DNA of 48,973 nucleotides from a virus (IMGVR_UViG_3300036668_000329:1-48973), one strand, 5' to 3'. Shown: positions 15,983 to 42,064, counted from the first letter of the stretch. A program made the numbers and translations. Notes: a model not told the origin generated them from the sequence alone.

Positions 15983-15992
15983 TTTTTTAGAA

Positions 15993-17036: not shown

Positions 17037-17075
17037 TCTTTTTTTCTCCTTTAGTATTTCTTACGTTAGTTAATG

Positions 17076-17951: not shown

Positions 17952-18010
17952 CTTTTTTATTCCTCTCGGGGCTTCTGAACGGCCTAGTTGTTATTAATTA
18001 CTGTTTTAGC

Positions 18011-20942: not shown

Positions 20943-20954
20943 CTTGTCCTCTAA

Positions 20955-23900
20955 CTACTCTTTCTCTAGAGTTTCCGTGTAAGACCCGCTTGGGGAGTAT
21001 CCACAATCTTTTATTAAATCCACTATATCTTTTTCGGGGGCCCAGGTTGCGCTAAAAAACTCGTCATCTTTTTGCATAACTTCAAGTAAAGAAAGCATCA
21101 TATCGGTGTCTAATACTTCCGTATTATAGTTTTCTGGATCACCGTAAAGTGACTCAAAAGTTCTAAACTCTGCCTCAGAGAAGGCAGAAAATATACTATT
21201 GTTGCGACCACGCCGTTTTCCTGGGTTCAGTTTGCTTCCGGTATATACACCAGTTGCTTCTTTATGACGTAATTGACAGTAGCCTTTTGCTCTAACTCCC
21301 ATATATTTTGATAAATACTTTACACATCTGGTCCAGTCACCGGGAGTGCCCCAGCGGATCTTGGCAGCGCCAACACCCTTGGTCCAATACCTACGAAGTT
21401 TTTCTGCGTTACCTCGATTTCTGTCGGCTCCACCGGCAGCAACCATAGACTCAACAATTCTTATTCTTTCTCTAAGAATGTCGTTCGAGAGAGTAAGACT
21501 TTCTTTGTTACTCTCTCTCTGTGCTTTTGGGAAATCATCTTCTTCATCTACCTCGTGGACTGCAGAATCTTTAGGTACGCAATTGGGAACCTCTTTGCCA
21601 TCGAGAGTTTTCATCCCAATCATGACGTAGCCCTCCCAGCACGGATCATCTGCTGCTGCAAGAATTCCTTCTTTTGGTATTTCATCTATAGGATCTATAA
21701 GTGAAGCTTCTTTCCATGTACTAGGAACTAGATCTTTTTGTTTTAAAGCTTTTGCTCTTTTTATAATATGCATACGGACTTTAGCTTTTTTTCCTGCACT
21801 AGCCCTTCCGTAAGATTGAATGGCATTTCTTAGATCGTAAGCATTTCTAATAGGAAAAGATCCGTCAGGGAGAGCTTTTCCTTCATTAGCAAGGCGTTTT
21901 CTGACTCTACGAGATATTACAGCTAGCTCTTCTTCAGGATTACCGTCATCTATTCCGTAAACCATGTAGTCAGAGTCTTTTTCAATTTCTTTCTTGGTTT
22001 TGCCCATTTTTGCAGCTAATTCTTCAGCTTTAACAGCAAGAACCTTAGATCTAGCAGACTCCATTGCTGCCACTAAAGGAGCATTTTCTTTCTCTTCCAG
22101 CCTTGCAAGCCTATTTTTAAGGTCAGAAACTGGATCGCTTTTCATTCTAGCCAAAGTGTTTGCTCCAGCGGCAACAAGTGCCATAACCTGACCTGATGCA
22201 ACGCGAGCGCGAGCAATAGGGAATCCAGGAACATTTACTTGACATACAGCAACTAATTCAAGCTGTCCCTTAATAGGACGCCAGTCACCTGAAGGAGCAG
22301 AGGCACGAAGAGCTCGGACTTGCTCAGGAGATGTGCCTGGACGTAGGGCCCCTGCTACCCAAATTCCGTAGGAGTCTTCACCTGCATGAACATCTGCAAT
22401 AGACGAAGCGGTGTCGTCGTAGTGACGAACGGCTTCCTGAGCTGACGCTTCAAGAGAAGCATGGCCACCAGCTAAAGTTAGTTGACCAACCGGGACATCG
22501 TTACCTTCCTCGGTACGAACGACTCCGGTATGGAAGTAAGCATATTTGCTTCTACTTCGAGGAGGTCTGGTCCCAAAAGACATTCCAATATGGTCAACAT
22601 GCCATGCAGCAATGTGGCCAAAAACTCGACCATCATCGTCTACTGTCAGAGGGGTTGCTTTTTTAAGTTTAGGATTATCAAACCACTCTACAGGAGGTGT
22701 AGTAGGAATTACTCCTGCCACAATCCCACAAGCCACTAGTGACGACGCTTCAAGGTCATCTATGTCATCAACATATACACCGTCGGGAACCACTATTTCC
22801 TCCTGAATTTTTTTACTATCTAGTATTTTTATTTGACATTCTTGAAATGCAGGCTTAGGGACAATAGTTACTGCCATAACTCTTGCTTTCTTAATCTTTA
22901 TTCTACCGTTAGATATCTCCCCTGGATTTTCAGAATTATCTTCTGTAGTCTCTTCATTTGCTTCAAATCTATCTAAATCAGCAGAAACTCCACTAATAAA
23001 GCCTCCTCTAACCAGACGTTCTGCTTCAGACCCGTAAGCACCTAAATCAAAAAATCCATAGGCATTACCTATGCCTTCTTCAGTTCTCTCCATACGAGTA
23101 ATTTTTCCTACTACAACAGACCCGTTATGTCCTTCTCCTGTTTTAATCTGCCAAAGAAGAGGAAGAGGAAGATCTCTCATAGTAATTGAATCTTTTTCAA
23201 AAATTCTTCCATCACCAGACTCAATACTCTCTGGTATTACTAAAGGAATAAAAAACTCAGCACCATTACTATATAATAAATCTCTTGAACCACCAGCCAA
23301 AAGTACTTTTTCTTTTGCAAAATTGTATTGAGACATAGTTTTAGAGTAATCTACAATGTCTTCAGATGTAGGTAGAGAAGTATTGTCTAGAAGTCCAGCA
23401 CTTGCAATAACAGCCTGAGATTTATGTTCTAAAAGATTTATGTCCCCTGGCCAAGAGTTATTTTGACTAAGAAATTGCAAAGAGCAGTATTCTTTTGCTG
23501 CAGGACCCATATGCTTTGACAGAGACTGTATGCACCTAGACCAATCTCCATTTGATCTCCATTTTATAGATTTAGATCCTCTACCCGAAATCCAATATTT
23601 ATGAAATTTAGCTACTTTGAATTGATTAGAAGATAATACAGAACTAGCAGTTACTGCTTTCTCTTTATTCTGTTCCATAAGTTTCTTTGCTGCAATCTCA
23701 GGGCCATCTATCTGCTTTATAACACTTTCAAGCATTTCATTATCTAGCGGAATAACAGGAGGAGGAGTTGCACTATTCAAATCTTGAATAATGCTAGCGT
23801 CTGCGACCCACTCCCCTGGGTCTCTTTTAAATGTCATAGGAGCTGTGGTGCTAGGTCCTTTTGGCACTAAAGCAATTAGATCCATAACAGCTTGAGGATC

Positions 23901-25634
23901 GTCATCTGCAACTATTGCCATATATATTGGAGCTACATCTGATTGACGAGGATTTTTGTATTCTTTCTCTGAAGATTCAACGGAACTTACAAGACTATTT
24001 TTATTTTTTTGATTTTCTGGACTCTCTACAAAATTTTTAAGGGTTGAGTCAGTTAAAGCATTTTTATTTTCATTCCAATTAAAATTGTCTTTTTCATAAA
24101 AAAGATCAGGACCTTTTTTTGTGTCCTCTTGTTGTAATATTTCCACGCCGTCATCTTTATTTTTTCTTTGCGAAGATACCCAAGAAGGGTAGTCACTAAG
24201 CAACTCTTGAAGAGATTCCTTTGATAGCGGGTCTATTTTTTTAGGAATACGTATTTTATCTTTAGGAACTACTTTAGATTTTGAAAGAATACCGTCAAAG
24301 TCTACTGAATCTGCTTTTTCTACTGCTTCATTTTTAGAATCTGCTATAGGATCCGAAACATCGGGTTCTATTAAGTTCTGCTCTTTTTCTGGGGCAGGAG
24401 GGGGGCCATCAAAGCTCTCCTCTTTTTGAGTTTGATTGGCTGGAATATCAATAAATTTCCCGTCAGCTAACTCCACTTTTACTGATTGAGACCTAGCATT
24501 TTGAGACACAATTGTCCCTCTGTAATCAGAGTTTCCTCCTATAACAACCTTAGCTCCAGTTTCGGTAAATCTTCCTACCTTGTCTCTGAGTTGTGAAGTA
24601 GCTTTGTCAGATCGCTCTTCAGGAGTGTAGTTTCCATCTCGATCTGTTTTAAATTTATCTGACGCAACTATTGCAGTTATATTAGAAAGATTCATGTATG
24701 GAGCAGCATCTTCATAGATGTAATGCTCTTCCGGAGACACTTCTTCTACTGATCTAAACATAAATGGATCAGAGTCAAACAAAGCAGCAAGTCGCACCGC
24801 AGACTCTTGATCTATAGGAATATGAGTTTTTTCTATAGTATCGTAAGGATCATCTAAACTTTTATCGTAAGTATTAATATCATGGTCAATGTGGCCTAAA
24901 GTATCCCAACAACCATCATCCCAAACAGATACGTATCCTGAAGGGTCTATGCAATATAATCTATCTAGTCCACTTTTATCAAGACGAACTCTAACCATAT
25001 ATCTGCAATCGTCAAAATTAAAACTTGTCACATCTACAGACATAGGATCTTCTATGTCATAATACCCGTAAGATGCAACAATCGTTGAAGTTTCTTTTTT
25101 ATTCTCTCGTTCTACATTTGCAGAAGCCCACCGCTGAGCAGCGTCTCCACCCCAAAGAGCCCAAGCAATTCTTCCTTTAGAAGGATAACCATCGTCTCCT
25201 GGCTTGTATCCTTTACCCTTTTTATCTACTTCATGACGAGGAAAGTATTTGGCAATATGACGAATTTTTTTAATACCGATTTGTCCACCCTTGGCAAGAA
25301 TCTTTGCAGTGTTACTGCCTACCGGAGTGCCACCACGCTTAAACTCTTTACGCCACTCGATAGCACGTTTGGCTTCTTCTTGGACAGACTTAGGGATCGT
25401 ATACATCCTCTGAGCATCAGAAAATACCGAAATATCTAGCTCGGTTAGGGCAGCAGTCGCAAGCTCTTGAGAAATATCCGAAGGGCTATCTAAACGTATA
25501 GACCAAGGATAAAACGAAGAAAGTAGTGGAAGAGAGTCTACCACAATGACAGTGTTTGTTGACTCGTCAACAATTGCCGCACTTTCTTCATTAGAAAAAA
25601 GAACCTTAGTTCCGCTTCTTCCTGCAAACTGCAT
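20955..25634 (-). CDS. capsid maturation protease polyprotein
   Basis: A 1559-aa head protein. The likely start is ATG 25634, one base after the upstream stop with AAGGA before it; a longer frame from 25748 would overlap that gene by about 110 nt. A prohead-protease-like core lies near residues 790-950 (FFIPLVIPESIESGDGRIFE, WQIKTGEGHNG, GGFISGVSADLDRFE, AVTIVPKPAFQECQIKI), giving candidate His and Ser catalytic residues. A second actinophage-type domain lies near 985-1145 (RVFGHIAAWHVDHIGM). Two copies of a 50-aa module (KYWISGRG...GDWSRC, RRYWTKGV...GDWTRC) lie near 675-715 and 1411-1460. It should cut the delta domain of the capsid protein. It is far longer than a simple protease (about 200-250 aa). 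Confidence 0.85.
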   Translation of the reverse strand: MQFAGRSGTKVLFSNEESAAIVDESTNTVIVVDSLPLLSSFYPWSIRLDSPSDISQELATAALTELDISVFSDAQRMYTIPKSVQEEAKRAIEWRKEFKRGGTPVGSNTAKILAKGGQIGIKKIRHIAKYFPRHEVDKKGKGYKPGDDGYPSKGRIAWALWGGDAAQRWASANVERENKKETSTIVASYGYYDIEDPMSVDVTSFNFDDCRYMVRVRLDKSGLDRLYCIDPSGYVSVWDDGCWDTLGHIDHDINTYDKSLDDPYDTIEKTHIPIDQESAVRLAALFDSDPFMFRSVEEVSPEEHYIYEDAAPYMNLSNITAIVASDKFKTDRDGNYTPEERSDKATSQLRDKVGRFTETGAKVVIGGNSDYRGTIVSQNARSQSVKVELADGKFIDIPANQTQKEESFDGPPPAPEKEQNLIEPDVSDPIADSKNEAVEKADSVDFDGILSKSKVVPKDKIRIPKKIDPLSKESLQELLSDYPSWVSSQRKNKDDGVEILQQEDTKKGPDLFYEKDNFNWNENKNALTDSTLKNFVESPENQKNKNSLVSSVESSEKEYKNPRQSDVAPIYMAIVADDDPQAVMDLIALVPKGPSTTAPMTFKRDPGEWVADASIIQDLNSATPPPVIPLDNEMLESVIKQIDGPEIAAKKLMEQNKEKAVTASSVLSSNQFKVAKFHKYWISGRGSKSIKWRSNGDWSRCIQSLSKHMGPAAKEYCSLQFLSQNNSWPGDINLLEHKSQAVIASAGLLDNTSLPTSEDIVDYSKTMSQYNFAKEKVLLAGGSRDLLYSNGAEFFIPLVIPESIESGDGRIFEKDSITMRDLPLPLLWQIKTGEGHNGSVVVGKITRMERTEEGIGNAYGFFDLGAYGSEAERLVRGGFISGVSADLDRFEANEETTEDNSENPGEISNGRIKIKKARVMAVTIVPKPAFQECQIKILDSKKIQEEIVVPDGVYVDDIDDLEASSLVACGIVAGVIPTTPPVEWFDNPKLKKATPLTVDDDGRVFGHIAAWHVDHIGMSFGTRPPRSRSKYAYFHTGVVRTEEGNDVPVGQLTLAGGHASLEASAQEAVRHYDDTASSIADVHAGEDSYGIWVAGALRPGTSPEQVRALRASAPSGDWRPIKGQLELVAVCQVNVPGFPIARARVASGQVMALVAAGANTLARMKSDPVSDLKNRLARLEEKENAPLVAAMESARSKVLAVKAEELAAKMGKTKKEIEKDSDYMVYGIDDGNPEEELAVISRRVRKRLANEGKALPDGSFPIRNAYDLRNAIQSYGRASAGKKAKVRMHIIKRAKALKQKDLVPSTWKEASLIDPIDEIPKEGILAAADDPCWEGYVMIGMKTLDGKEVPNCVPKDSAVHEVDEEDDFPKAQRESNKESLTLSNDILRERIRIVESMVAAGGADRNRGNAEKLRRYWTKGVGAAKIRWGTPGDWTRCVKYLSKYMGVRAKGYCQLRHKEATGVYTGSKLNPGKRRGRNNSIFSAFSEAEFRTFESLYGDPENYNTEVLDTDMMLSLLEVMQKDDEFFSATWAPEKDIVDLIKDCGYSPSGSYTETLEKE

Positions 25635-25635
25635 A

Positions 25636-26403
25636 TTAGTTATCCTTGTCTTTTCCGGTGACTGGACCGCCAGCGACCCAGGCAACACATGTTCTTCCTG
25701 CTGCACATTTAAAGTCAAACGCTTCGCAATATCCAAGAGTTCCTGCATCTATAGCGTCCCAAGCTTCCTTGCTGCCTTCCTGCGTCAGACCTGAGTCAAG
25801 ACAGTCGAGCATCTCGGGAGTACGAATAAATACTGCGCAGTTACCACATCTAGAGCTTTTAGCTTCATCAACCGTAGTACTCCAGAGTTCGGCTTTTTCC
25901 TCCCAGAAATCAACATTTGGCCTATCTGGATTAAGAGGACCATAACCAGCACTTTTAATGGCCTTATTTCTGTTTTCCAGATTAATCATTATATCCTGAG
26001 TTGCAGGGGGGCAAGTAAAATTATCAGACGCAGAAGATACAATTGCTGTCTTATTTCTTTGTCTATCGTCAGCCAACTTATATGATGGAAAATACTCATA
26101 AAGAACTTCATCTGATGCCTTATAAAACTGAATTTCTTTATTTAATTCTGAATCTTGAGTGTCCCACTTGTCTATAAACTCAATTGCCCTATCTGGATCA
26201 ATAAAAATTTCATATACATCAGAATTACCTTCAATATCTACTTCCGGAGATTTAAGCTCCCAAGATTCATCCACCCTATAAAAAAATCCAACCCCGTACC
26301 AGTTAAGTTTAACTGCCACAATTTTGTCATCAAAGTTAAAAAGAGCAAATAAAGCTAACATACCTGCTCTTTTTCTTTGCTCTAAATCAGAATCAAATTT
26401 CAT
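25636..26403 (-). CDS. Cys-cluster protein (HiPIP-like C-terminus)
   Basis: A 255-aa protein. The last about 70 residues contain SSRCGNCAVFIR, GYCEAFDFKCAAGRTCV and a WVAGG tail, a Cys arrangement like small phage proteins that resemble high-potential iron-sulfur proteins; metal binding is inferred. The N-terminal 150 residues are not recognised. It sits between the head-protease gene and small hypothetical genes, so it is probably virion-related. Confidence 0.7.
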   Translation of the reverse strand: MKFDSDLEQRKRAGMLALFALFNFDDKIVAVKLNWYGVGFFYRVDESWELKSPEVDIEGNSDVYEIFIDPDRAIEFIDKWDTQDSELNKEIQFYKASDEVLYEYFPSYKLADDRQRNKTAIVSSASDNFTCPPATQDIMINLENRNKAIKSAGYGPLNPDRPNVDFWEEKAELWSTTVDEAKSSRCGNCAVFIRTPEMLDCLDSGLTQEGSKEAWDAIDAGTLGYCEAFDFKCAAGRTCVAWVAGGPVTGKDKDN

Positions 26404-26406
26404 ATT

Positions 26407-26637
26407 CTATTTTACCTCTTCATTAAATTCTTTATTGTTTTCAAAGTCTTTAACAATTTTGTCTAGTATTTCTTGACCCATTTTTTCTATATTAATTCCT
26501 AATTTTGATAGAAGTGCTTCCTCAGACTCTTTATCCCCACGTAAAGCTAATGCAAGTAGTGCTTCTATAGGTGCTGCCTCTAAATCCTCTTCAAAGGAAC
26601 CGTTATCTGTCTCATAGATTACTTTTCTAATACTCAT
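26407..26637 (-). CDS. small hypothetical protein
   Basis: A 76-aa acidic, helix-rich protein of unknown function. It is the third member of a tightly packed group (26800-25636) and its ATG follows the preceding stop by one base. Nothing in its sequence points to a specific family. Confidence 0.6.
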   Translation of the reverse strand: MSIRKVIYETDNGSFEEDLEAAPIEALLALALRGDKESEEALLSKLGINIEKMGQEILDKIVKDFENNKEFNEEVK

Positions 26638-26638
26638 G

Positions 26639-26800
26639 TTATTTTTTATCCTCGTCTAATAGGTCTCTCGCCCAAACTTTTTCTTCATCTGAAAGATCGT
26701 TGAAGTCTAAGACTCCTCCAATAAACAAGTCCCATGACGGAACTAAATCTCCCACGTACTCTGGGTTAGTTGCTGTAGAGATCTCTTCTGGCTTGTCCAT
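26639..26800 (-). CDS. small hypothetical protein, 53 aa
   Basis: A 53-aa ORF, MDKPEEISTATNPE at the start and WARDLLDEDKK at the end, filling the gap between the giant gene and the 76-aa gene. Its ATG overlaps the giant gene's stop (TGATG) and its TAA is one base before the next ATG. This perfect packing is why I call it real despite its size. It is acidic with LSDEEKVWARDLL suggesting a C-terminal helix. No function is visible. Confidence 0.7.
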   Translation of the reverse strand: MDKPEEISTATNPEYVGDLVPSWDLFIGGVLDFNDLSDEEKVWARDLLDEDKK

Positions 26801-29800
26801 CACTTTTCTGTCTCCTCGATGTAGTCCTCAACAATATCGTCAACTTGACTAGGAGTAAAAGATGCTCTGCTTGCGTCTGGATTGTCTTTTCTCCATTGTC
26901 TCCAAACAATAGCTTGAACTTGCATAGGGGTCAAGTTATACTTTTCAGCTACTCTCCTATAAGCGTCTGCAAATGGAGCATACACTCCAGACACTCCGGC
27001 GGTAGCAGAGTTTACACCGGGAAAATTATTAAACCTTTTACCGTCTGCAAAATAGTTATATTCTTTGGAGGTTGATCCAAATTTTTTCCCCATAGCAGCA
27101 CTAAATGCATGAACATCTACAGTAACATCAGCTGTATTAATGTCTCCACTATCCACACCATTGATGTTATTGTAGAAAGACCTCACTTTATGTCCGTTCA
27201 AAATCTCATTAGGGTCTTCACCTCGAGCGACTCGTACGCCTCTTCCTAGGTGTTGAACTCCAGAAGTCCAACGAACACTTGTAGTTCTGCCTGTAACATC
27301 GTCTACCGAAGTTAAGCGGGACCCGTCTACATTGTCTCCAACTCCTGACGTTTTGTACCCCATCTGACCATGAGCCTTTATGAGAGAAGCAGCAACGTAA
27401 GGGTCAAGATCACTTAGACTGGAGTTTAAGAGTTCGTCTGGAGACGGCATTCTTTTTTTAGATCCGTCCATTGATCTATTTCCATCAAAACCTTCTAACT
27501 CTCTTTTTGCCCATTGGTACATGTTCAAAGTGAGAACAACACTCTTACCGTATTCTTTAACTGGTTTTGTAATTACAGTGTTAAGTAGATCATCTATCTG
27601 AATGTTGTGATCTTCAAATAGAGACTTTGCAGCGTATTGAGACCCTGCAATATTGTCAGACCAAGACTGCTGGGGACTAGTTGCCGCAAGAAGTGCAGCG
27701 GCTTCTTGTCCAGAAAGTCCGTACTCACCTAAATTTGCAGCAATTTCATTGGCTTGATCGTACCAATCTAACCCTTCAGGATCTCCATTAGACTCATCAA
27801 AAGCTTTTTGAAGTACTTTTTCTATATTATTTTGCAAACTTTCTTGAGTCACTCCAAGATTATCTAAAGCTGCAGAGATTTTATTTCTAAGTTCCTCTGG
27901 AAGTTTACTAGTTGTTGTTGCATCAAAAATAAGGTTCTTATCTCCAGCCTCTTTGTTTTTTAGTTTTGATCTAGTGCCAGTATTTGGTCCAATTCGTACT
28001 AAACCTTCCTGACTAACCATAGGATCTGCCGTAATGTCACTATTAACATTTGGACCTAAGTCAAGATCAAAGGTACCTTCTTGTTGAAGAACCTTCGGAT
28101 ACCTCTGAGGCCAGTCGTACGCTTCAGCAACTTCTTTTATTTCTGGAGAAGAGTTTCCTTTTGTGTTAAACCATAGAGAGAAAGCTTCTGCATAAGTTTC
28201 GTTAGGACGAATTCTTCCGTAAGCAAAACTCGGTAAGGTACTAGCAAAATCATCAAGAGCTTCCAGTCCACGTCTATTTTGTGCGTTTCTAACTTTTCTT
28301 TGCTGTGTAACTATATCTCTATTATTTTTAGATCTAATAGCTTTTGGACCTGGAGTAATCTCTACTCTATCGACAATATGTCCCATTTCATGCACTAAAG
28401 TAGCGTAAAGACTACTTTCGTCAGCGAGAACATGCTGCCCGTAGCGCGCACTACCTGCGCGGTTCATAGGATCTAATCCATTTACAACAGTAGATTTATT
28501 AATAGTTATAACGTGATCCGATGTCGTAGCTTCGGCAAATATAGTTCCTCCAGCTTCTTTTTCTCTTTGAGCAAAATAACTACCATCTGCAATAATATAG
28601 TTCATATCTGGGACAAAAACAGATGACTCTATTAAATCAACAGTTTCAGCCATTGTTTGAAGTTGTTCGTCAGAAATATCAGCAGCAAGAGAGATAGAAC
28701 TTCCTCTACTATTTTTTATAACTCTTACTACATTTTTATTATCTTCTTCAATATATGACATTGCTATGTTAACAATAGATGTACGAAACTGAGTAGCAAA
28801 TCGTTCTAAGACTAATTCTCTAATATCCTCAATGCTCGTTTGAGGAGAAGAGGCTTGTGCCTTCTTTACTGCATTATTAATATCATCCGTGTTTTGCGCT
28901 AGGTGTTTTTGGAAAACAAAATATTCTGTTGAAGACACTATAGAATTTTTATGTGTTTCTAGAGAAGTATTTGACCAACCTTTTGGCGCGGGTCCAGAAG
29001 CTGTTTTAGTCGGAGGAGTAGAGTTATTGTTACGAGAATTTTCTTTCTCCCACCTTTTAATTGCTTCAGGAATACTTAGACCAGATTCTCGAAGTTCTCT
29101 AAGAATTTTTGTAGTGATAACAGGATTATTGTATCCAATAGGAGGAGTAACAGGTGTTCTTCTTGGTCCTAACCAATAGTCTGGCACTGAGCTAAGTTTA
29201 GTGTCAGAACTCCAAGCTCCTGTACTAGGATTTACTCTGAATACTCGATCAGAGACTCGAAGAATTGGTCCTTTACCTTTTTTACCAGTTTTACTATTTT
29301 TATCGTACTTTACTAGTACATAATCGTAGTATTGTCCTTTTCCAGACTCCCAGGTTCTTACTAGATCTACGACTATTCCGTATTCTCCAGTTATGTGGTC
29401 GTACACAGTGTCGGCTATTTTTAGGGTAGTGATTCCATCTGCAGAGCTATAAGGATCTACTTGAACTTCAGTAGCAGAAAGAATTCTGTTAATGCTTTCT
29501 TTGGACTCAAAAAGATCGACGATAGACCTAGGACCATCTGTGTACGAAACTTTAGCTTCATTTACGTCTTTATTGATCATATTTTTAATATGATTTGGGG
29601 AATCCCCGTACTTATTAGAGTTAATTCTTTTAAGAATTTTTGGTGTGTCTAAAATATTTCCTTCATCGTCAGTAAGCTTTGCGACTTGATGGATGATTGA
29701 AAAACTGTTGTCAGTGTTGTATTGAGCAACAATTTCATACTTGTACTTCTGATTTCCTGCTTTTAGATCAACCCCCCACATCCTCCACACTCCGTTACCT

Positions 29801-32800
29801 AGAGGAATTCCACCTAGTTGATCTTGAATAACAGAGATAGAACCCGCAAGAAGACCTGGATCTGAAAGTTCTTCTTCAATTTCTTCATCAGATCTTTCAG
29901 AAATTTTAAGATCTTCAGGTATTGTTTTGTTTATTTCAGATTCGGCTTTTTTAGTATTTTCTACTTTTTCTTCAGTAGATCTTTTTTTAGGTTTGTCTTT
30001 TGTTCCTGCAGCTTGAGCTCTAATACTTTTAATTATTTTGTCAAGCTCTTCTACGTCAGCTCCAGGGAACTTTTTTCTAGACTCAAGAATCTTAATAGCA
30101 CTCTCTGGATTCATTTTTTTATATAAATCGGGAGTTACTGCAATTTGTGAAACCACTCTGAGAGCATCAGGAGTAGAGAACTCAACTTCCGCTGAGTCAG
30201 AGGCTCTGTTTGGGTTTGAAATACTTGGATCGTCTACATCTATTCCTTCGGTCCTGCCTAAAACCCAGTCGAGAGAGCCTAAATCAAGTGCCTTCTTTGC
30301 TCTAGTCACGGCTACGTAAGAGAGTCTTAGTTCTTCATCTGAAGGGAATATTTCCAAACCTGTTTCTTTACTAATTTTTGGTGCTTGAAAATCGTCAGCA
30401 ATTTTTACTCTATCGAACTCAAGGCCCTTTGCTTTATGAGCCGTAGAGATATAAACATCAGAATCTTCGGAAGGAATTCCTTGAGAAGTTCTTCTTAAAT
30501 CATTAAGAGCAGCCCACATATCTTGCTCTGTTTCGTAGACAGCGCGCCAAGAGTTTCTCTCTCCTTTTTCAGTAGGAGGCACTCCTTCTGCAGCTCCTCC
30601 ACCTCCCCAGACATATTCTTTATTTTCTTTTCTTTCTTTCATCTCTTTTATTGGACTAACAAAACCCAAACGTGAAAGGTCAAAGGTTTGTATCTTTTTT
30701 ATCCCTTGATCATAAACATTTGTTATGTATCGTCCTGTAAGACTCCCGTTATTGTCTCTTTCAGGAGTATACACAGCGTATACATTAAAGGGAGACTGTC
30801 GTCTTTTAGATGTTTGATACGAAGCTGTTTGATGTATTAAAAAAGGAACTTTTTCTTCAGCATTTTGTTCTTCCCATGAGCCTTTTTCTACGAGAACCTG
30901 AACTCCATTAGGCGACAGTTCAGGGATAAATTTTTCTGCAGTAAGTCCCTCTGAATATATAATTTTTGTATCAGCTATAAGTTTGGTTAATGCTTCTTGA
31001 CCTTCTTTATCTCGTAAAAAGTTGAACAAAATTTTAACTTTTAGAGGAGCATTTCCAGAGTTTACATCTCTAGAAAGCTCTTCCCATGAAGAGTATTTTT
31101 CAAGATCAGGACTACCTGACCCATCATTGTCAAATCGTAATTTTTTAGCAGCAGCAACAAATTTAATAAGTTCTTCTCTGTATTTTTTATCCGTGCTTAC
31201 TGTCTTCCCAAGATCTTGCTGTTCTTTAATATTTGAAATTGTTCCTAGATTAGTTCTAGTAAGTATTGCTGTTGGATCTGTCATAGTGCCAGAAGGAAGA
31301 ATCTCTGCGTCTACTGCCGCTCCGCCGATAACTCGTTCTTTTGATCCAAGAAGGTATAAGAATCTGTTTCCCATAGTTGCAATGGATGGACCAAAACGCC
31401 AAGATTTAGTAAGAGGAACATCAAAAGAAGCAGAAACTTTCTTTAGTTCATCTTTAGCACCACGAAAAGCATAGATAGCTTGATTAGAGTCTCCAACGTA
31501 GATAAGTTGAATTCCCTGATTTTTTAGTACTTTTGCCATTACAGGGTTTATGTCTTGAGCCTCATCGAAGAAAATCGTATCAATTATAGGAAACTGTTCT
31601 CCACCCAAAGATAGGTCAGGATTACTTAATGCCCAAGCCTTGGTAATGTGATTATTGTTTGTTTTTATTCTTCCCTTTGGGTCCTCTGAAATATCTTCCC
31701 ATATTTTTTCAGCAATATCTAGTAATTCTAGTGGAGTTTTATCGCCATCAGGAGCGTGCTTTCCAGAGATTTTATCGTCATCACTTACAGTAAATTTAGT
31801 AACAATTCTGAAAGCTAGTGAAGCTATTTCTGACGCACCAATTTCTGTTTCTGGATTTTCAGGGTCAACAAGTTTTAAGTCTTTAATAATACCTGGATAT
31901 TTTTTCTCCAAATAATCTGAAATTTGTAGTCCTGTAATGGCAACATCTTCTTTAATAAATTTAAATCTTTGCTCCATAAAATTTGTTTCAGGGTTGTTTG
32001 CTATAGAGCTTAGAGCGATTGCATCTCCTGTAAAAGAAAATACATTTTCTGGCATTTTTTTATCTGCTTCAACTTGAACTGTTTTATTGAAAGCAATATA
32101 AAGAATATTCTTTTCTGGGTCTTCTTTTAAGATTCTTCTAGCAGTCATAGCAAGAGTACTTGTTTTACCTGTGCCAGCTAGCGCTCTAACTATTGTGTTA
32201 GCTCCGGTTACTATAGAAGCAATAATTTTTCTTTGCTGATCTGTAGGTTGAAACTCTTCATCCTCGTACTCATAGTCATCGTCTACAGGATCACTATTAA
32301 CTGGTATATCAGTTGGTGGAGTTGCTGGTTTATTCCTTAAGAATCTGGCTCTTTTTGACTTAGAACCCGATAAAGGTTTTGCTTCTTTTTTAGCTGGCTT
32401 TTTTCTAGGTGCTTTTTCTGGTACAGGTGTATCATTTTCAGAGTCTTGGGAGTCTATAGGGGCTTCAGTAGTGACAGGCTTAATCTTAGGCACAGGGATG
32501 GGGACAAAGGGAGTAGAAGTATTTTTTTCATTTGTCTCTACTCCTCTATTTCTCATTAATTTTTTTACGGCAGCTTTAAAGTTTTGATTAGTTGCCATTT
32601 TATTTACAAAAGCGTTTCCATCAAATTCTGGATAAACCTCTCCTGTGGAGCTGTACAGGCTTGGGTATATAAGATTTGCTAAACGAGCAAGTTCTTCAGC
32701 CGAGCTAGTATCTCCATTTTTAGCTTGGCTACTTAGTCTAACAAAAAGTCTAATATTTTTTATGGTATCGTCTACGTTTATTAATTTAGGTTTCCCTGTT

Positions 32801-35800
32801 TCTGGAAATACCTCGGCCATAGCATTTCTAATAATTGAAAGAGATTCAGGATCAGTAATTTTAGGAGTATCTCCAAAAAGATTTTCCCAGTTTGTATTTC
32901 CGTAAGCATTTTTATTTTCATCAGTAGGTTCACCATTTAAATCAGTAAACCATCGAGATTTAATATCCTCACGAAGAATGTCGGCTTCCATTTTATTGAG
33001 AATTTGGCTTACGTACTTCTGAGACTCTTCATCAGATAGCTCTTCAGATGTAGTTACTTCTGCTTCTGCTTCTTTTTCTCTTGCTTCGTACGTCTCTGGA
33101 AGCCACGAGTCATCTAATGCATCTTCAATCCAGTCAGAAAGGCTTGAAAGAGTATTTGATGCACTTACAAAGTTAGGATCTCTGTCATCAGATCGCTGTC
33201 CTCTAAAACCACCACGTTCTAGTCTTTCTAATCTACGAACAGCTTTATCAATTAAACTAGCAATTTCTTCTAAAGCTTCTTGACTATTTCTACTACCATC
33301 ATCAGAAAGAATGTATTTTCTCAGGGAGGTCCTAGTGTTCTCTAACGATGACTGTACGTCGGAGAGCATTTGATTAAAAAGACTTCTACGTCGCACCTCA
33401 GATAGGTCAGGGTAGAAATTGTCTGGCATATCTAGATCAAGAAGATGGCTTAAAGAGCTGTCTACCTGCTTAATTAGCTCTCTACTTCTTCTATTTAAGT
33501 CAGATTTACGAGATGCTCCAGGAACTCCTCGTTCCTTTGGTTTTGGATGTACTCGAGGATTTTCAGAAGTCCCTTGAGGATCAGCTACCGAGTCATCTTC
33601 ACTAGTCTCTGATACTGAAATATCTCTGTTTTCATATCGAGCCCCTACAAACTTAGCTATAGCGTTAGGTTTTCCGTTTAATCTCTCTAAACGCTCTTCA
33701 GCAACTCTAGACTGCACTCCGCTAAATATTTTTTGATAGTCTGCAGACATCTGAGAAATAATTGTTGAGAAGTCTGCTAGTTCTTGATTTGACAATTTTT
33801 CTACTGGACTAGAGAACAAATGAAGAACGTATTTCCTAGCAAAAATAACATCTGTAGTTTTTCCGGAAGGATCTACATAAAAAAATTCTTGAGGGCTTAG
33901 TACTGGCTCGCTAGGCTTTCCTTCGTCAGGTTTAGGTTTAGTAGCTCCTTCTCCTGGAATAACATCTGAAGGGACTACTGGAGTGTTGCCAGGAGTCACT
34001 AAATCGGGCGTGGGTGTAGGTGTGGGTGTAGGTGTGGGTGTGGTGGGTGTAGGTGTAGGTGTGGGTGTAGGTGTGGGTGTGGTGGGTGTAGGTGTGGGTG
34101 TTTCGGAAGTAGCTGGTGTTTTAGGTTTAGGAGTTCTTTCAGGCTTTACATAATTTTCTACATCTTGATAGTAACCAGAAAGTTGAGAAGCTATACCAGA
34201 TATTTCGGAAATAAATTCTTCCATTTCCGGGTAGTTTTGCTGATCCTTTAAAATACTAGTTCTTGCGTCAGATAAAAGTTTAGATACTTTATTTACAATA
34301 CTGTCAAGGTAGGCTGAAGCTTTTTCTAGTGCCTCTTTATCTATATTTCTAGGGTTTACAATTGCTTCTTGAAGAAGTTCTCCAGCGTAATCAAGACCTG
34401 CTGCTATATCTTCTTTTAGTTTACCGTAACCATCTAGTTTATTTTCAGGAATATCTGAAGGATTTTTTACATCCTCTACTTCCACAGACTTTGCAAAAAT
34501 TTCTTCAACAAAAGCCCTAGCTCTTTTTAATAAACTTTTCGATGTGTCATCAACAAAAGAAGATTCTTTTTTAGGTGATTCTTCTGATTTTTCATCGGAG
34601 ATAACAGTAGGTTCAGGAACTGACTCTGCATCAACAAATTCAGCCAGAGCTTTTCCTAAATCATCACCGTCAGATATAGCTTTTGCATAAAGATCTGCTT
34701 GGTCGTTAAGATCTGAAAGTTCTTCTTCTGTTCCAGAACTCTCAACTACTTCTCTACCTTCAACGTCTGAAAGAACAAGATCAATTCCTCCATCGTTATT
34801 TTTTCTTGTCTCGACTGCGTATTCTTTTTTATTAGGGGCAGTAGTAGTGCTTTTTTGCGTGCCGTCTTCATTAGTTACCTTAGCAATGTTAGAGTCTTCT
34901 GTTCCTTCATCCTCTGACACTTCTGTAGTTTCTTCTGTATCAACAAAATCTACAAGAGCTTTTCCTAAATCATCACCGTCAGATATAGCTTTTGCATAAA
35001 GATCTGCTTGATCGTTTAGCTGCTGCAACTCTTCTTGAGTTCCCGAGCTTTCTACTATCTCTCGTCCCTCAGAGTTAGCAATAACAAGATCAACAGTCTC
35101 ATCTTCATTTTTTCTTGTCTTAACTGTATATTCTTTGCCATTAGGAGCAGTTACATTTGTAGACTTTGTCTCCCCACTTTCGCCTCCAAAAATATCGTCA
35201 GGATCGAAAGCTTCATCGTATACTTCTTGAATAATACTGTCAGTGTCTGAACCCTTCATCTGAATGGCATCTCTAATTGCATCTAGAGGAGCTGTAACAA
35301 AGGACTCTTCGTTATCTTCATCAGTACGACCCACAGTTCCATATCCTGGACGACTTGCTTCGGGGCGAAGTCCTTCTGAAAGAGCCTCTGTAAGATCGTC
35401 TACGTCAAAATTATTAGCTAAATTAATGGGGTCAAAGTCTGGGTTCTCATCAACGTTTTCAAAGGGCTCTTGAAAAATTGGTTGATAATCGTTAGGAATA
35501 TCAAACTCTTGATTATCAGGGAGATATTTTTTGTAGTCTCCTCCGTTAATAATATCTTGCTTTTCTTCGTCTGTAAGCCCAGAGAAAAGTTCAGGAAGAG
35601 ACGTGTATCGTGCAGTTGAGGGTTCTTCTTCCTTTTCTTTTTCTATAGTTTTAGCTTTATTAGAGGGACTTGGGCTCCCAGGAACGCGAGATTCTTCTTT
35701 CACTTCATTGAATTTATTAAGACGATCTACGTTAGATGTGTTCGACTCAGGGAGGCCATCATAGATCTCAGATAGAATTCTTCTGGCATCAGATCCCTGC

Positions 35801-37398
35801 TCCTTAAGAGCATCATATATTGCTTGAGCAGAGACGGACTCTCTCTGAGATTTAAAAGGAAGTTCTCCTGCACCCGGGGGGCCAAAATCAAGTTCAAGCT
35901 CTTCTACGTCAGCATCAGATGATTCGAAGGGTTTTACTGACTGAAGAAGCGCATCAGATAAAATATCTTTAGAAAACATGTTAGCTAAGATTGATGGATC
36001 ATCTGTGTAGTCTTTAGACTTCTGGTCGGTACGTCCTCGTGGCTCGTATGTAGAACCATCATTTACAAGATTTACTCCTGTAGGATCTTCAAACTTAAAT
36101 ACTTGACTCTGTACATCTTCTTCAATACTAGAGGCTTTTTTTAAGTCAAACGTTTCTCTAGCGTATTCACGAGGATCTTTGTTCCCAGTTTTTTCCCAGA
36201 CTTGAGTAAGTTGTTCGTCACTAAGGATAGCAAGTATGTCTGGCTCTCTGCCATTCTCTTTGTCTTGAACAATTTCATCTATATTCATGAAATCAAAAAC
36301 TTCTGCCCATGACTGACCTGTACCTAAGTCAATACCTCCACGCTTACCTGAGTCCCTATTAAGAATGTATACAGGTTTGTCAAAATCAATAGGGAATGAT
36401 CCGTCAGGTCTACGCTCAGACAATTCGGGAGGAAGAGCATCAAATTGATCGTCATCATTAGGATCTAATTTAATAATTTCGTATGCGTCGTCAGTGTACT
36501 TAATGCCAGGGCCTGGGTACGAGTCATCTCTACGAAAACCATTAGGGGCTTCTACTTCTTGAAGTTGATCTTCTGATACTGCAACACTTCTTGTATTACT
36601 TGGAGCTTCTTCTGATGAATAACCTTCTGGAGAATCTGAAGAAGGTAGGTATGCCTTACTTGCTTCGGAAGATCCTGCAGGAACTCTATATAGTTTACCG
36701 TCAGGAGTTTCAACATCAAATGTGTCGTCATCTCCCACGCCCTGAGCAAGAGTTCTACCGGAAAGTTTTCTATACGACCCGTCTAATCGCTTAATGATGG
36801 TGGACATACCGCCACCCATCCACGCAAAGCGACCTTTGCGGTCACGACGCTGCATACGAGCTCGAGCAGATCTAGCAGCTCTCGAGTTTCCATCTCCAAA
36901 AGCAGCAATAAGTGCGCTTAGTGGCACTGAACCCTGCGGAAGAGCAGAAACTCTAGTTAAATAGTAGGACTCTTCAACTGAAAAAGGCTCTGAAGTAAAT
37001 ATAGAAGCAACTAGGGCTCGGGCTTCGTCATCAATAATTCTGTAGTCTGAAGATATCCAGTTTCCTTTTTCATTTCTTAATGCAGACTCTGTCATTCTAT
37101 GGTTTTTAGTCGAAGCCGGATGGCAGACAGGAAGAAGATCAGTATTTCTTAGTCTAGGAAGAGCACTTTTATTTTTCTGCAGTACAGAGATAAAATCTGA
37201 CACGTCCCTAGCAGCTAAGTATTCTCGAATAGAGAAGGGAAGAGTGTTCGTTTTTGTTAAAGATCTGTTAATGATTGTTAAAGCAGAAAGAGGAGTAATT
37301 TGTCGATAAAACTGAGAAGACTCATTAGCACTGGCAACAAGGGCTAAAACAGAAGTTGTTATCTTCTTAGTTTGTTTATCTGTAATATTTTTTATCAC
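26800..37398 (-). CDS. giant multidomain virion protein: SF1 helicase, HEMGH peptidase-like and C-terminal domains
   Basis: A 3532-aa protein in the position after portal and Dps where phages often encode injected or portal-linked proteins. Residues about 1-260 resemble an actinophage head module (RDRKGRFAWMGGGMSTIIKR). A disordered, acidic region with two ~102-aa tandem repeats follows (about 745-920), then a Pro-Thr linker near 1098-1131. A complete SF1 helicase spans about 1715-2395: ALAGTGKTST (K~1745), FFDEAQDIN (~1945), GDSNQAIYAFRG, STAHKAKGLEFDRV, LSYVAVTRAKKAL. A zincin-like HEMGH lies at about 3002-3006 with a downstream ETYAEAF. The last about 340 residues (AALLAATSPQQSWSDN) form a conserved-looking domain I cannot name. 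Likely ejected into the host with DNA as a 'polyvalent' protein; this is inference. Confidence 0.85.
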   Translation of the reverse strand: MIKNITDKQTKKITTSVLALVASANESSQFYRQITPLSALTIINRSLTKTNTLPFSIREYLAARDVSDFISVLQKNKSALPRLRNTDLLPVCHPASTKNHRMTESALRNEKGNWISSDYRIIDDEARALVASIFTSEPFSVEESYYLTRVSALPQGSVPLSALIAAFGDGNSRAARSARARMQRRDRKGRFAWMGGGMSTIIKRLDGSYRKLSGRTLAQGVGDDDTFDVETPDGKLYRVPAGSSEASKAYLPSSDSPEGYSSEEAPSNTRSVAVSEDQLQEVEAPNGFRRDDSYPGPGIKYTDDAYEIIKLDPNDDDQFDALPPELSERRPDGSFPIDFDKPVYILNRDSGKRGGIDLGTGQSWAEVFDFMNIDEIVQDKENGREPDILAILSDEQLTQVWEKTGNKDPREYARETFDLKKASSIEEDVQSQVFKFEDPTGVNLVNDGSTYEPRGRTDQKSKDYTDDPSILANMFSKDILSDALLQSVKPFESSDADVEELELDFGPPGAGELPFKSQRESVSAQAIYDALKEQGSDARRILSEIYDGLPESNTSNVDRLNKFNEVKEESRVPGSPSPSNKAKTIEKEKEEEPSTARYTSLPELFSGLTDEEKQDIINGGDYKKYLPDNQEFDIPNDYQPIFQEPFENVDENPDFDPINLANNFDVDDLTEALSEGLRPEASRPGYGTVGRTDEDNEESFVTAPLDAIRDAIQMKGSDTDSIIQEVYDEAFDPDDIFGGESGETKSTNVTAPNGKEYTVKTRKNEDETVDLVIANSEGREIVESSGTQEELQQLNDQADLYAKAISDGDDLGKALVDFVDTEETTEVSEDEGTEDSNIAKVTNEDGTQKSTTTAPNKKEYAVETRKNNDGGIDLVLSDVEGREVVESSGTEEELSDLNDQADLYAKAISDGDDLGKALAEFVDAESVPEPTVISDEKSEESPKKESSFVDDTSKSLLKRARAFVEEIFAKSVEVEDVKNPSDIPENKLDGYGKLKEDIAAGLDYAGELLQEAIVNPRNIDKEALEKASAYLDSIVNKVSKLLSDARTSILKDQQNYPEMEEFISEISGIASQLSGYYQDVENYVKPERTPKPKTPATSETPTPTPTTPTPTPTPTPTPTTPTPTPTPTPTPDLVTPGNTPVVPSDVIPGEGATKPKPDEGKPSEPVLSPQEFFYVDPSGKTTDVIFARKYVLHLFSSPVEKLSNQELADFSTIISQMSADYQKIFSGVQSRVAEERLERLNGKPNAIAKFVGARYENRDISVSETSEDDSVADPQGTSENPRVHPKPKERGVPGASRKSDLNRRSRELIKQVDSSLSHLLDLDMPDNFYPDLSEVRRRSLFNQMLSDVQSSLENTRTSLRKYILSDDGSRNSQEALEEIASLIDKAVRRLERLERGGFRGQRSDDRDPNFVSASNTLSSLSDWIEDALDDSWLPETYEAREKEAEAEVTTSEELSDEESQKYVSQILNKMEADILREDIKSRWFTDLNGEPTDENKNAYGNTNWENLFGDTPKITDPESLSIIRNAMAEVFPETGKPKLINVDDTIKNIRLFVRLSSQAKNGDTSSAEELARLANLIYPSLYSSTGEVYPEFDGNAFVNKMATNQNFKAAVKKLMRNRGVETNEKNTSTPFVPIPVPKIKPVTTEAPIDSQDSENDTPVPEKAPRKKPAKKEAKPLSGSKSKRARFLRNKPATPPTDIPVNSDPVDDDYEYEDEEFQPTDQQRKIIASIVTGANTIVRALAGTGKTSTLAMTARRILKEDPEKNILYIAFNKTVQVEADKKMPENVFSFTGDAIALSSIANNPETNFMEQRFKFIKEDVAITGLQISDYLEKKYPGIIKDLKLVDPENPETEIGASEIASLAFRIVTKFTVSDDDKISGKHAPDGDKTPLELLDIAEKIWEDISEDPKGRIKTNNNHITKAWALSNPDLSLGGEQFPIIDTIFFDEAQDINPVMAKVLKNQGIQLIYVGDSNQAIYAFRGAKDELKKVSASFDVPLTKSWRFGPSIATMGNRFLYLLGSKERVIGGAAVDAEILPSGTMTDPTAILTRTNLGTISNIKEQQDLGKTVSTDKKYREELIKFVAAAKKLRFDNDGSGSPDLEKYSSWEELSRDVNSGNAPLKVKILFNFLRDKEGQEALTKLIADTKIIYSEGLTAEKFIPELSPNGVQVLVEKGSWEEQNAEEKVPFLIHQTASYQTSKRRQSPFNVYAVYTPERDNNGSLTGRYITNVYDQGIKKIQTFDLSRLGFVSPIKEMKERKENKEYVWGGGGAAEGVPPTEKGERNSWRAVYETEQDMWAALNDLRRTSQGIPSEDSDVYISTAHKAKGLEFDRVKIADDFQAPKISKETGLEIFPSDEELRLSYVAVTRAKKALDLGSLDWVLGRTEGIDVDDPSISNPNRASDSAEVEFSTPDALRVVSQIAVTPDLYKKMNPESAIKILESRKKFPGADVEELDKIIKSIRAQAAGTKDKPKKRSTEEKVENTKKAESEINKTIPEDLKISERSDEEIEEELSDPGLLAGSISVIQDQLGGIPLGNGVWRMWGVDLKAGNQKYKYEIVAQYNTDNSFSIIHQVAKLTDDEGNILDTPKILKRINSNKYGDSPNHIKNMINKDVNEAKVSYTDGPRSIVDLFESKESINRILSATEVQVDPYSSADGITTLKIADTVYDHITGEYGIVVDLVRTWESGKGQYYDYVLVKYDKNSKTGKKGKGPILRVSDRVFRVNPSTGAWSSDTKLSSVPDYWLGPRRTPVTPPIGYNNPVITTKILRELRESGLSIPEAIKRWEKENSRNNNSTPPTKTASGPAPKGWSNTSLETHKNSIVSSTEYFVFQKHLAQNTDDINNAVKKAQASSPQTSIEDIRELVLERFATQFRTSIVNIAMSYIEEDNKNVVRVIKNSRGSSISLAADISDEQLQTMAETVDLIESSVFVPDMNYIIADGSYFAQREKEAGGTIFAEATTSDHVITINKSTVVNGLDPMNRAGSARYGQHVLADESSLYATLVHEMGHIVDRVEITPGPKAIRSKNNRDIVTQQRKVRNAQNRRGLEALDDFASTLPSFAYGRIRPNETYAEAFSLWFNTKGNSSPEIKEVAEAYDWPQRYPKVLQQEGTFDLDLGPNVNSDITADPMVSQEGLVRIGPNTGTRSKLKNKEAGDKNLIFDATTTSKLPEELRNKISAALDNLGVTQESLQNNIEKVLQKAFDESNGDPEGLDWYDQANEIAANLGEYGLSGQEAAALLAATSPQQSWSDNIAGSQYAAKSLFEDHNIQIDDLLNTVITKPVKEYGKSVVLTLNMYQWAKRELEGFDGNRSMDGSKKRMPSPDELLNSSLSDLDPYVAASLIKAHGQMGYKTSGVGDNVDGSRLTSVDDVTGRTTSVRWTSGVQHLGRGVRVARGEDPNEILNGHKVRSFYNNINGVDSGDINTADVTVDVHAFSAAMGKKFGSTSKEYNYFADGKRFNNFPGVNSATAGVSGVYAPFADAYRRVAEKYNLTPMQVQAIVWRQWRKDNPDASRASFTPSQVDDIVEDYIEETEK
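34009..34104. repeat. Thr-Pro coding microsatellite in the giant gene
   Basis: About 96 nt of alternating GGTGTA and GGTGTG hexamers on the plus strand encode a (Thr-Pro)n linker on the minus strand, residues about 1098-1131, with two phase breaks (TTP). It separates the N-terminal acidic half from the helicase half and is prone to length change by slippage. Confidence 0.9.
34640..35165. repeat. tandem ~306-bp in-frame duplication in the giant gene
   Basis: Two copies of a ~102-aa module (TAPNGKEYTVKTRKNEDE and TAPNKKEYAVETRKNNDG through ISDGDDLGKAL). Near 34659-34705 and 34965-35011 about 45 bases are identical, showing recent duplication or gene conversion while the flanks have diverged. 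Confidence 0.85.
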
Positions 37399-37400
37399 AA

Positions 37401-38432
37401 TTAGGCACTTTCTTCTTTAACAGGGAGCAGATCTGAGTCTGCACTATTGTAAGTTAAAACTGCTAAATCTTTTGCTCTTTTAAACGGGTCTTGACCACTT
37501 TTGACTCCTCTAAGCCATGCAGCTTTAAATGAGTATTCCGACTCATATCCTAGTCCAGAAAATTCTGTAATAGACATTATAGCCTCTTTAGTAGTCGAAA
37601 AAGTATTTTCTTTTAGATCGTTAAGAGCAAGTTCATTTTCGGCTGTAAAAGAAACTAGCTCTAGCTCTATGTCCTGAGTATTCTTTTTTGCAGTTACGAC
37701 TCCGTCAGGTAGAATCGCTAGTCGACACTTCCCATTGGGCTCGACAGGGAGACTGATGATTGCGCAATCTGCTCCACCTTGATAGAACACGCAGTTGGCG
37801 CAAATAACCCCGATGCCTGCATCTGTATTTTTATTGGCAGGAGTATATCCAGCCCAGACTCCTGTAGCGTCTTCGTTAAACTTTCCGTGCTTTTCTACTA
37901 CAGAAAGAATTGCATCTGCTAAATCACGCTCTTCAGGTACCAATCCGCTGGCGGTAAGCGCTGAATTGGACTTCTTGCTGCTCTTGGGGTGTGATGCAGG
38001 TAAAAGATCGTTATCAGTTGTGTACGCAGAGTTTGATGGCTTACCAGACTTAAGAAGCTTTAAGTAGGCGTTAACGCGCGCCATAGCCCACTGATCCCGA
38101 GACGTACCGGGGCGGTGGCTGATGGAATATGCACCAGCACCTCTACGGTAGACAGCCTTAAGCATGGCAAGAGTAGCTTTACGTCCCTTAGGAGCCTTTT
38201 CATTGTGCTCTTCTACTTTGTTTTTGATAGCAGTCTCGGTACGAGCTCCAAAAGAAATCTTTCCTTCACCACTGGCGGAACCTTTTTTGTTTTTATTGGA
38301 CCCTTTTATTTGATCTTCTTTAGGGGCAGGCTCACTTGCAGCAGCAACAACCACTTCAGGGGTAGCAGAAGTACCGGCAGGAAGATAGTGTTGCGCTACC
38401 TTAACCCAGCTCTTTGACGATTGTGTTGTCAT
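37401..38432 (-). CDS. head protein with Cys-cluster domain
   Basis: A 343-aa protein (start ATG 38432 just past the Dps stop; a longer frame from 38477 would overlap Dps by 43 nt). A basic region near residues 60-130 contains RRGAGAYSISHRPGTSRDQW and ARVNAYLKLLKSG, a module known from other actinophage head proteins. A second domain near 205-245 has CANCVFYQGGADC and GKCRL, a four-Cys arrangement like that in the 255-aa protein of this window. Probable structural or head-assembly protein; the metal guess is inferred. Confidence 0.72.
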   Translation of the reverse strand: MTTQSSKSWVKVAQHYLPAGTSATPEVVVAAASEPAPKEDQIKGSNKNKKGSASGEGKISFGARTETAIKNKVEEHNEKAPKGRKATLAMLKAVYRRGAGAYSISHRPGTSRDQWAMARVNAYLKLLKSGKPSNSAYTTDNDLLPASHPKSSKKSNSALTASGLVPEERDLADAILSVVEKHGKFNEDATGVWAGYTPANKNTDAGIGVICANCVFYQGGADCAIISLPVEPNGKCRLAILPDGVVTAKKNTQDIELELVSFTAENELALNDLKENTFSTTKEAIMSITEFSGLGYESEYSFKAAWLRGVKSGQDPFKRAKDLAVLTYNSADSDLLPVKEESA

Positions 38433-38434
38433 AT

Positions 38435-38896
38435 TTAGTATCCGTACTTCGGATCTAGAGATGCTTTCATCATCCAACGAAACTTTTTATGCGCTGAATC
38501 TCTACCAGCCATGTCATCTGCAATACCTTGTTCATTAGCAGCGTTGGCAGCAACAAAAGTATCGTTAATATCAGAAATGATAATTTCGTTTGCTTCGTAG
38601 CAAACCTTGAGCAGTTCTTGAACAGAGACTCCGCACTCTGTCTCTTGAATGTTTCCAAGACGCAGAAAGTCAGACAGAGATGCAGGAGCAGGAGATCCGA
38701 GTCTGCGAATATTCTCGGCTATAATATCGGTTGCGTCATCTACGTCCTCGTAAAACATTCCAAACATGGTGTGGTATTGAGCAAAATCTTGCCCTGTCAC
38801 ATTCCAATGCGCACCTTGAAAGATGTACTTAAGTACTACGTTATCACTGAGGAGCGTTGCAAGAGCATTGACTACTTCTGGTTTATATACACTCAT
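38435..38896 (-). CDS. dps: Dps-like ferritin
   Basis: A 153-aa four-helix ferritin-family protein. The Dps ferroxidase signature is visible: AHWNVTG, QYHTMF, then YEDVDDATDIIAENIRRLG, supplying the two His, Asp and Glu iron ligands in the family spacing. Dps proteins form 12-mers that oxidise and store iron and can protect DNA. Here the gene sits between portal and head genes in a virion operon rather than among host-takeover genes. GAGAGA lies a few bases before the ATG. It could be packaged or could shield phage DNA from oxidants during infection; which one is not decided by sequence. Confidence 0.88.
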   Translation of the reverse strand: MSVYKPEVVNALATLLSDNVVLKYIFQGAHWNVTGQDFAQYHTMFGMFYEDVDDATDIIAENIRRLGSPAPASLSDFLRLGNIQETECGVSVQELLKVCYEANEIIISDINDTFVAANAANEQGIADDMAGRDSAHKKFRWMMKASLDPKYGY

Positions 38897-38905
38897 AATA
38901 TCTCT

Positions 38906-41743: not shown

Positions 41744-41777
41744 TTACACTCCTGTCATACGGTTGCGGTACATACGG

Positions 41778-42059
41778 TCAGCTGTCCGAATGTGCGGCTA
41801 GTAGTGCTGCCGCTGCAGAGAGAGCTAGAACCATCTCGACAGCGGTAGTTGTTCTAGGCGCAATCATACGGGATAATTGAAGTGCTGATGCCGCATAAAC
41901 GCTGCTACACCAGTCGCACGTAATGAGATACCCGAGACGGGATGTCTCTGGGGGGTGCGTTTCCCAGATACGGTCGCGGATTGGTGCTGTAATTTCATCG
42001 GTAGTGATGAGACGAGTCAGTCGATATGTGGCAAGTGCGCTCGTGATAAGACTTTGCAT
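41778..42059 (-). CDS. DUF1360-like small protein
   Basis: A 93-aa protein with the DUF1360 layout: ALATYRLTRLITTDEITAPI at the start, then GYLITCDWCSSVY, then a hydrophobic C-terminal helix (MVLALSAAAALLAA) that probably enters the membrane. Its function is unknown. AGGAG lies eight bases before the ATG. It is the gene just before portal in the leftward operon. Confidence 0.75.
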   Translation of the reverse strand: MQSLITSALATYRLTRLITTDEITAPIRDRIWETHPPETSRLGYLITCDWCSSVYAASALQLSRMIAPRTTTAVEMVLALSAAAALLAAHSDS

Positions 42060-42064
42060 AGTGT

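Follow-up and report, generated by a model that had tools for sequence, protein, structure and literature searches.

A giant phage protein carrying an SF1 helicase and a predicted zincin in a conserved slot of the head operon: a probable packaged polyvalent protein

Polyvalent proteins were defined by Iyer et al. in 2017, together with the proposal that they are self-processed by zincins (PMC5512222). Superfamily 2 (SF2) helicases were found in their phage and plasmid forms, and UvrD-like superfamily 1 (SF1) helicases only in a few actinomycete conjugative elements (PMC5512222). In an overview of jumbo phages, the UvrD-type SF1 helicase is a T4 Dda-like recombination helicase and not part of a polyvalent protein (PMC7824862). 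The present analysis concerns the virus record IMGVR_UViG_3300036668_000329 of IMG/VR, taken in its entirety (48,973 bases, hereafter the window), and a giant gene at 26800..37398 on its minus strand, which encodes a protein of 3532 amino acids (aa; ~390 kDa) from a GTG start. Judging from its sequence, this protein is of a known kind, the phage polyvalent protein, with an SF1 helicase payload as an unusual, widespread variant, and it is probably packaged in the virion and ejected with the DNA. Among open-licence papers, the SF1 helicase seems to be undescribed as a recurrent part of phage-borne polyvalent proteins, and an earlier mention elsewhere is possible.

That giant fused polyvalent proteins occur in phages and conjugative elements, as stated in a first inspection of this DNA (the sequence-only reading), agrees with the account of Iyer et al. 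(PMC5512222). The phage-type members (e.g., P1 DarB and the N4 virion RNA polymerase; PMC5512222) resemble the giant in being giant chains of unrelated enzyme domains with a zincin module, a head or late-gene neighbourhood and domain exchange, and siblings of the giant carry MPTase-PolyVal and ArdC-N. The giant differs from them in its motor, which is SF1 UvrD/FBH1-like whereas theirs is SWI2/SNF2 (SF2), in lacking a methylase, in its N1/N2 head without a Pfam family, in a zincin outside PF18818 and in its C-terminal DUF7178. The giants of actinomycete conjugative elements (OJH72069.1, PMC5512222), likened here by description, also hold a UvrD-like SF1 helicase in a giant multi-domain chain, but they belong to conjugative-transfer contexts and carry SWI2/SNF2, whereas the window gene lies in a phage head operon. 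The SF1 core is common to the giant and to the cellular helicases FBH1, UvrD and PcrA; unlike theirs, the predicted helicase of the giant is embedded among other phage domains.

Domain architecture of the giant protein

An open frame of 3532 codons has a chance probability of ~1e-101 at the composition of the window (log10 about -101.5). The sequence-only reading had given the same coordinates, without a strand, and had placed the gene between portal-linked and capsid genes. Both points hold, the minus-strand order being portal with intein, Dps/ferritin-like protein, DUF5824 protein, giant, small conserved open reading frame (ORF), maturation protease, scaffold-like protein and major capsid protein, with the start of the giant 2 bases past the DUF5824 gene. 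All features of the giant and of this operon are on the minus strand. The chain joins an SF1 helicase, a zincin motif and DUF7178 in one frame and has portal, protease and capsid genes as neighbours, in keeping with two marks of polyvalent proteins, namely at least two unrelated domains per chain and proximity to late or virion genes. Domains characteristic of polyvalent proteins (MPTase-PolyVal, ArdC-N and LPDs) were not detected in the window protein at E values up to 1; MPTase-PolyVal and ArdC-N were found in sibling giants.

The helicase (aa 1716-2385, 30244..32253) was recognised by Pfam, by PHROGs and by a sequence match to a solved structure. UvrD-helicase (PF00580) and UvrD_C (PF13361) scored above the Pfam cut-off, the phage DNA helicase profile phrog_1967 covered aa 1703-2375 (E 3.7e-76), and the top solved-structure match was F-box DNA helicase 1 (E 2e-23). 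The helicase motifs are intact, as first supposed, with Walker A (ALAGTGKT, aa 1739-1746, 32161..32184), Walker B or motif II (FFDEAQD, aa 1943-1949, 31552..31572), motifs III to V and motif VI (YVAVTRA, aa 2361-2367, 30298..30318) with its arginine all present. Substituted Walker residues in relatives, which had been named as grounds for abandoning the proposal, were looked for, and all Walker residues proved invariant. Among 31 aligned helicases, no variation was seen in the GKT of Walker A (K1745 and T1746, 31/31), DEAQD (D1945 and E1946, 31/31), the glutamine of motif III, the arginine of motif IV, the lysine and glycine of motif V and the arginine of motif VI (R2366, 30/30). The ratio of nonsynonymous to synonymous substitution rates (dN/dS) between close relatives was 0.06-0.18. 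In the tree, the helicases of the giants grouped at 100/99 against two stand-alone helicases, and the window helicase paired with that of locus L139 at 98/96, on long branches that leave the exact place unsure. Ten relatives were examined for DnaB_C without a match, 9/10 carried an SF2 helicase as a protein of its own (about 600-700 aa), and the complete genome of phage DSL-LC01 held no UvrD-type helicase; the SF1 helicase is therefore an optional module and not the basic replication helicase.

The peptidase region (aa 2770-3115, 28054..29091) is a predicted zincin, recognised by an HExxH motif and a downstream glutamate and matched by Pfam below threshold only (top profiles at E 0.02 and 0.034, the second being a zincin family). 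The motif HEMGH lies at aa 3003-3007 (28378..28392), where 0.013 HExxH motifs would be expected by chance, and the predicted third zinc ligand is E3071 in AEAF (28186..28188). The pairing of HEMGH with a downstream glutamate, already noted by eye, was thus located, and both elements are retained in a relative that has 29% identity over the peptidase region.

DUF7178 occupies the C-terminus (aa 3150-3532, 26803..27951; Pfam E 1.8e-27, 97 bits against a cut-off of 27; phrog_3842). Together with a 103-aa tandem repeat and a duplicated N2 domain, it adds to what had previously been described for this protein. At least 526 DUF7178 relatives were present among at least 600 IMG/VR pattern matches listed, many within ORFs longer than 1,900 aa, and the domain seems to recur as a module in giants of this type. 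Its confident AlphaFold2 model (predicted local distance difference test, pLDDT, 85) gave no significant match in the PDB with Foldseek and nothing above Z 2.3 with VIA-align, and a profile search of PDB sequences returned nothing. In BFVD, the model matched large phage proteins, one of them annotated as ART-PolyVal-like (E 9.6e-10). The assignment of DUF7178 as a helix-hairpin-helix DNA glycosylase, considered for its K...VTVDxH motifs, was not supported by these structure and profile searches of the PDB. DUF7178 also occurs in a very long methyltransferase-annotated gene (joined 42499..9155) of Rhodobacteraceae phage LS06-2018-MD07 (OP947163.1), which is likely to encode another polyvalent protein.

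The N-terminal half begins with N1 (aa 1-310, 36469..37398), the conserved head of the giant family, with 37-69% identity in relatives. By BLAST against relatives, N2 was found as a first copy at aa 436-570 (35689..36093) and a second at aa 627-734 (35197..35520), both copies aligning with one and the same part of the relatives. Two copies of the 103-aa tandem repeat follow (aa 750-957, 34528..35151), and the Pro-Thr linker mentioned in the sequence-only reading was confirmed as a run at aa 1100-1131 (34006..34101). Within N1, the motif DLLPxxHPxST (aa 87-97, 37108..37140) is also found in the upstream DUF5824 protein, and RDRKGRF (aa 185-191, 36826..36846) in the maturation-protease polypeptide and the scaffold-like protein. 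Relative after relative, DLLPxxHPxS is common to N1 and the DUF5824 protein of the same genome, and RDxxGRF to N1, maturation protease and scaffold-like protein. A beta domain shared by N1 and the protease was also considered and dropped, the similarity being weak without the motif, and the short motif alone is claimed. The N1/N2 model (pLDDT 77, predicted template modelling score 0.44) had no significant PDB match, and an N1 scan of genome contigs gave no match.

Relatives, payloads and divergence in the slot

A helicase scan of IMG/VR returned 49 loci, the helicase being mostly inside ORFs of 2,200-6,100 aa, and an N-terminal alignment scan found relatives encoded in 205 stretches, of which 80 were kept. 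A portal, DUF5824 or ferritin gene was found upstream in 94/96 loci with enough DNA, and an orf26, protease or capsid gene downstream in 31/32, both counts including redundant loci. By BLAST, the constant parts of the giants are N1, N2 and, in a subset, the helicase, and the rest is exchanged. The payloads across siblings include the SF1 helicase, DEDD exonuclease, ArdC-N with MPTase-PolyVal, ADP-ribosyltransferase (ART), NUDIX and kinase-like domains, with the SF1 helicase and the DEDD exonuclease among the commonest; most N1 giants have no SF1 helicase. Pfam found MPTase-PolyVal and ArdC-N in ten siblings and the RNase_T exonuclease in many, as well as ART, NUDIX, WYL, KTSC, sigma-70 region 4, pentapeptide repeats and PI3/PI4-kinase-like domains. 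Among these, MPTase-PolyVal, ArdC-N, ART, NUDIX and RNase_T are hallmarks of polyvalent proteins. Peptidase_S78, the prohead protease, was present in three sibling giants and, in loci L024 and L046, lies N-terminally in the chain that bears the helicase. The combination of helicase and metallopeptidase, which had been thought uncommon, is not so, because an SF1 helicase with a zincin recurs in the slot, usually with ArdC-N and MPTase-PolyVal.

Two of these chains are a 4807-aa sibling (L046:410-14830) with Peptidase_S78, ArdC-N, MPTase-PolyVal and two SF1 helicase motif sets, and a 4740-aa sibling (L024:4286-18505) with Peptidase_S78, sigma-70 region 4, KTSC, SF1 helicase, RNase_T, ArdC-N and MPTase-PolyVal. 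Two named phages can be compared. Gp78 of the cultured Arthrobacter phage Racecar (QFG12206.1, 2709 aa, annotated as DNA helicase in GenBank) shares the portal-giant-protease-capsid slot, a homologous helicase and a C-terminal HExxH, but has no detectable N1/N2, and at its C-terminus a head maturation protease PHROG is matched in place of DUF7178. WJZ48510.1 of Actinomycetia phage DSL-LC01 shares the slot and has homologous N1/N2, but is without helicase and HExxH. The consulted passages of the paper on DSL-LC01 (PMC10611076) contain no discussion of this giant.

A near-identical phage is represented by two contigs (G013 and G014; loci L139 and L141, also L138) encoding a 3,777-aa giant. The same domain order, which the sequence-only reading had suggested seeking, is present there as N1, N2, repeat, helicase and HEMGH...AEAF, then an insert that resembles an ART on reading its sequence, though not by a database match, and last a divergent DUF7178 recognised by profile (E 1.7e-17, single-sequence search). 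At the DNA level, 40992-43510 of the window is 99.1% identical to these contigs and 45214-47734 is 97.6% identical; at the protein level, the capsid protein is 99.3% and the HslV-like protein 100% identical. Identity falls toward the giant, with values of 86% for DUF5824, 75% for Dps, 69% for N1 and 57% for N2, and further along the chain it is 45-58% for the helicase pieces, 32% for the next region and 29% for the peptidase, while DUF7178 of the window gave no BLAST match to that of the contigs. On the other side of the giant, identity is 70% for orf26 and 66% for the protease gene. This pattern would most simply be read as the exchange of a block surrounding the giant, with rapid change in the payload at the same time or afterwards. 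The tail and tape-measure genes (window 1-13400) are a second region strongly diverged from the same contigs (25-45% identity or no match).

Neighbouring genes in the window

Upstream of the giant lie the portal protein (38906..41743; phrog_776, E 1.5e-94, and intein domains), the Dps/ferritin-like protein (38435..38896; PF00210, phrog_3636) and the DUF5824 protein (37401..38477, by Pfam). The in-frame portal intein has a LAGLIDADG domain (window 39896-40991); the two close contigs align on either side of it and not across, and appear from this alignment to lack it. The Dps/ferritin-like gene is kept in several relatives between portal and DUF5824, and its product is a candidate packaged DNA-binding protein. 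Downstream are the conserved ORF (25636..26403), kept in relatives, a large gene with similarity to head maturation proteases (20955..25748; phrog_859 and phrog_18402, with PF04586 below threshold), the scaffold-like protein with the motif RDAAGRF (20226..20942), whose role is suggested by its position, and the major capsid protein (18011..20068; phrog_777, E 3.3e-78). An HslV/proteasome-beta-like ORF (window 46506-47096) lies upstream of the head operon, and DSL-LC01 likewise has a protein annotated as HslV-like. The 2.2 kb at window 43290-45519 hold no ORF longer than 96 aa on either strand and no Rfam match; parts of them are 91-99% identical in the two close contigs, with shuffled repeat-like pieces. 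Terminase (TerL) was not found within the window.

Packaging, ejection and rival explanations

The architecture of the giant, its slot, its conservation and the exchange of its payloads can be read directly from the sequences; packaging, cleavage, ejection and the task of the helicase are inferred from them. Packaging and ejection, put forward in the sequence-only reading, remain the best explanation and are considered probable, as suggested by the conserved slot, the prohead-protease fusions and the shared motifs. The account of the giant as a phage-type polyvalent protein is further favoured by the hallmark payloads of its siblings, the invariant helicase residues with their low dN/dS, the single clade of giant helicases, the optional nature of the SF1 module and the steep fall in identity across the giant in the near-identical phage pair. 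The N-terminal half would bring the chain into the procapsid in company with the head proteins encoded next to it. The chain would be cut by the zincin, the head maturation protease or both, and the pieces would exit with the DNA when a cell is infected. Once in this host, the helicase would use ATP to travel along single-stranded DNA of the incoming genome or of host repair intermediates, and by analogy would most plausibly strip RecA or host nuclease or restriction complexes; UvrD/FBH1 kin strip recombinase filaments. The other modules would act on separate host targets. Fast exchange and diversification of the payload are as expected of parts acting on host defences.

Several points weigh against packaging and ejection. 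MPTase-PolyVal (PF18818) matched neither the whole protein (E up to 1) nor the peptidase piece alone (E up to 10). Pattern scans and tblastn found no relatives of the peptidase in phages or plasmids, and those in the two close contigs surfaced through the N1 scan only. The profile comparison between N1 and the protease region after RDxxGRF gave 97% probability with the motif and 29% without it. The shared motifs, which are taken here to point to a common partner or protease without proving it, could mark something besides packaging.

The fixed place beside portal and protease, the conserved N-terminal half and the motifs common to head-operon proteins would also suit an internal head-assembly protein, such as a scaffold or portal-ring partner, whose helicase works while DNA is packaged or the head matures, for instance by removing single-strand gaps ahead of DNA entry into the head, and is not ejected. 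This is unlikely, since most N1 giants and the complete DSL-LC01 lack the helicase, ART, ArdC-N and NUDIX payloads would be senseless in packaging, and the payload has diverged far more than the capsid protein. Slightly less likely still is a late-expressed protein that stays in the cell as a replication or repair helicase or an anti-defence factor and is located in the head operon by chance. The helicase of the giant is indeed the sole UvrD-type one found in most of these genomes, but most of them have a separate SF2 helicase, and the slot is also held by helicase-less giants and by chains with the prohead protease built in. A degraded or chimeric gene without function, which the large size, the many repeats and the low-complexity spacers might suggest, is very improbable and already contradicted by the data, given the 3532 open codons, the invariant catalytic residues, the dN/dS well below 1 in relatives and the same architecture in an independent contig.

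Beyond the probable packaging and ejection of this giant, it is tentatively suggested that a large phage family (hundreds of contigs, including actinophages) may share a payload slot in which N1/N2 serve packaging and the exchanged enzymes, DUF7178 among them, are injected, with a virion-borne DNA motor acting in the first minutes on incoming DNA or host recombination complexes. If the giant is ejected, an ATP-driven DNA motor supplied by the phage itself would reach the cell ahead of all phage gene expression, a point that bears on the survival of newly entered phage DNA in the face of RecA, RecBCD/AddAB and restriction. New anti-defence enzymes may be sought in the hypervariable payload that follows the conserved head.

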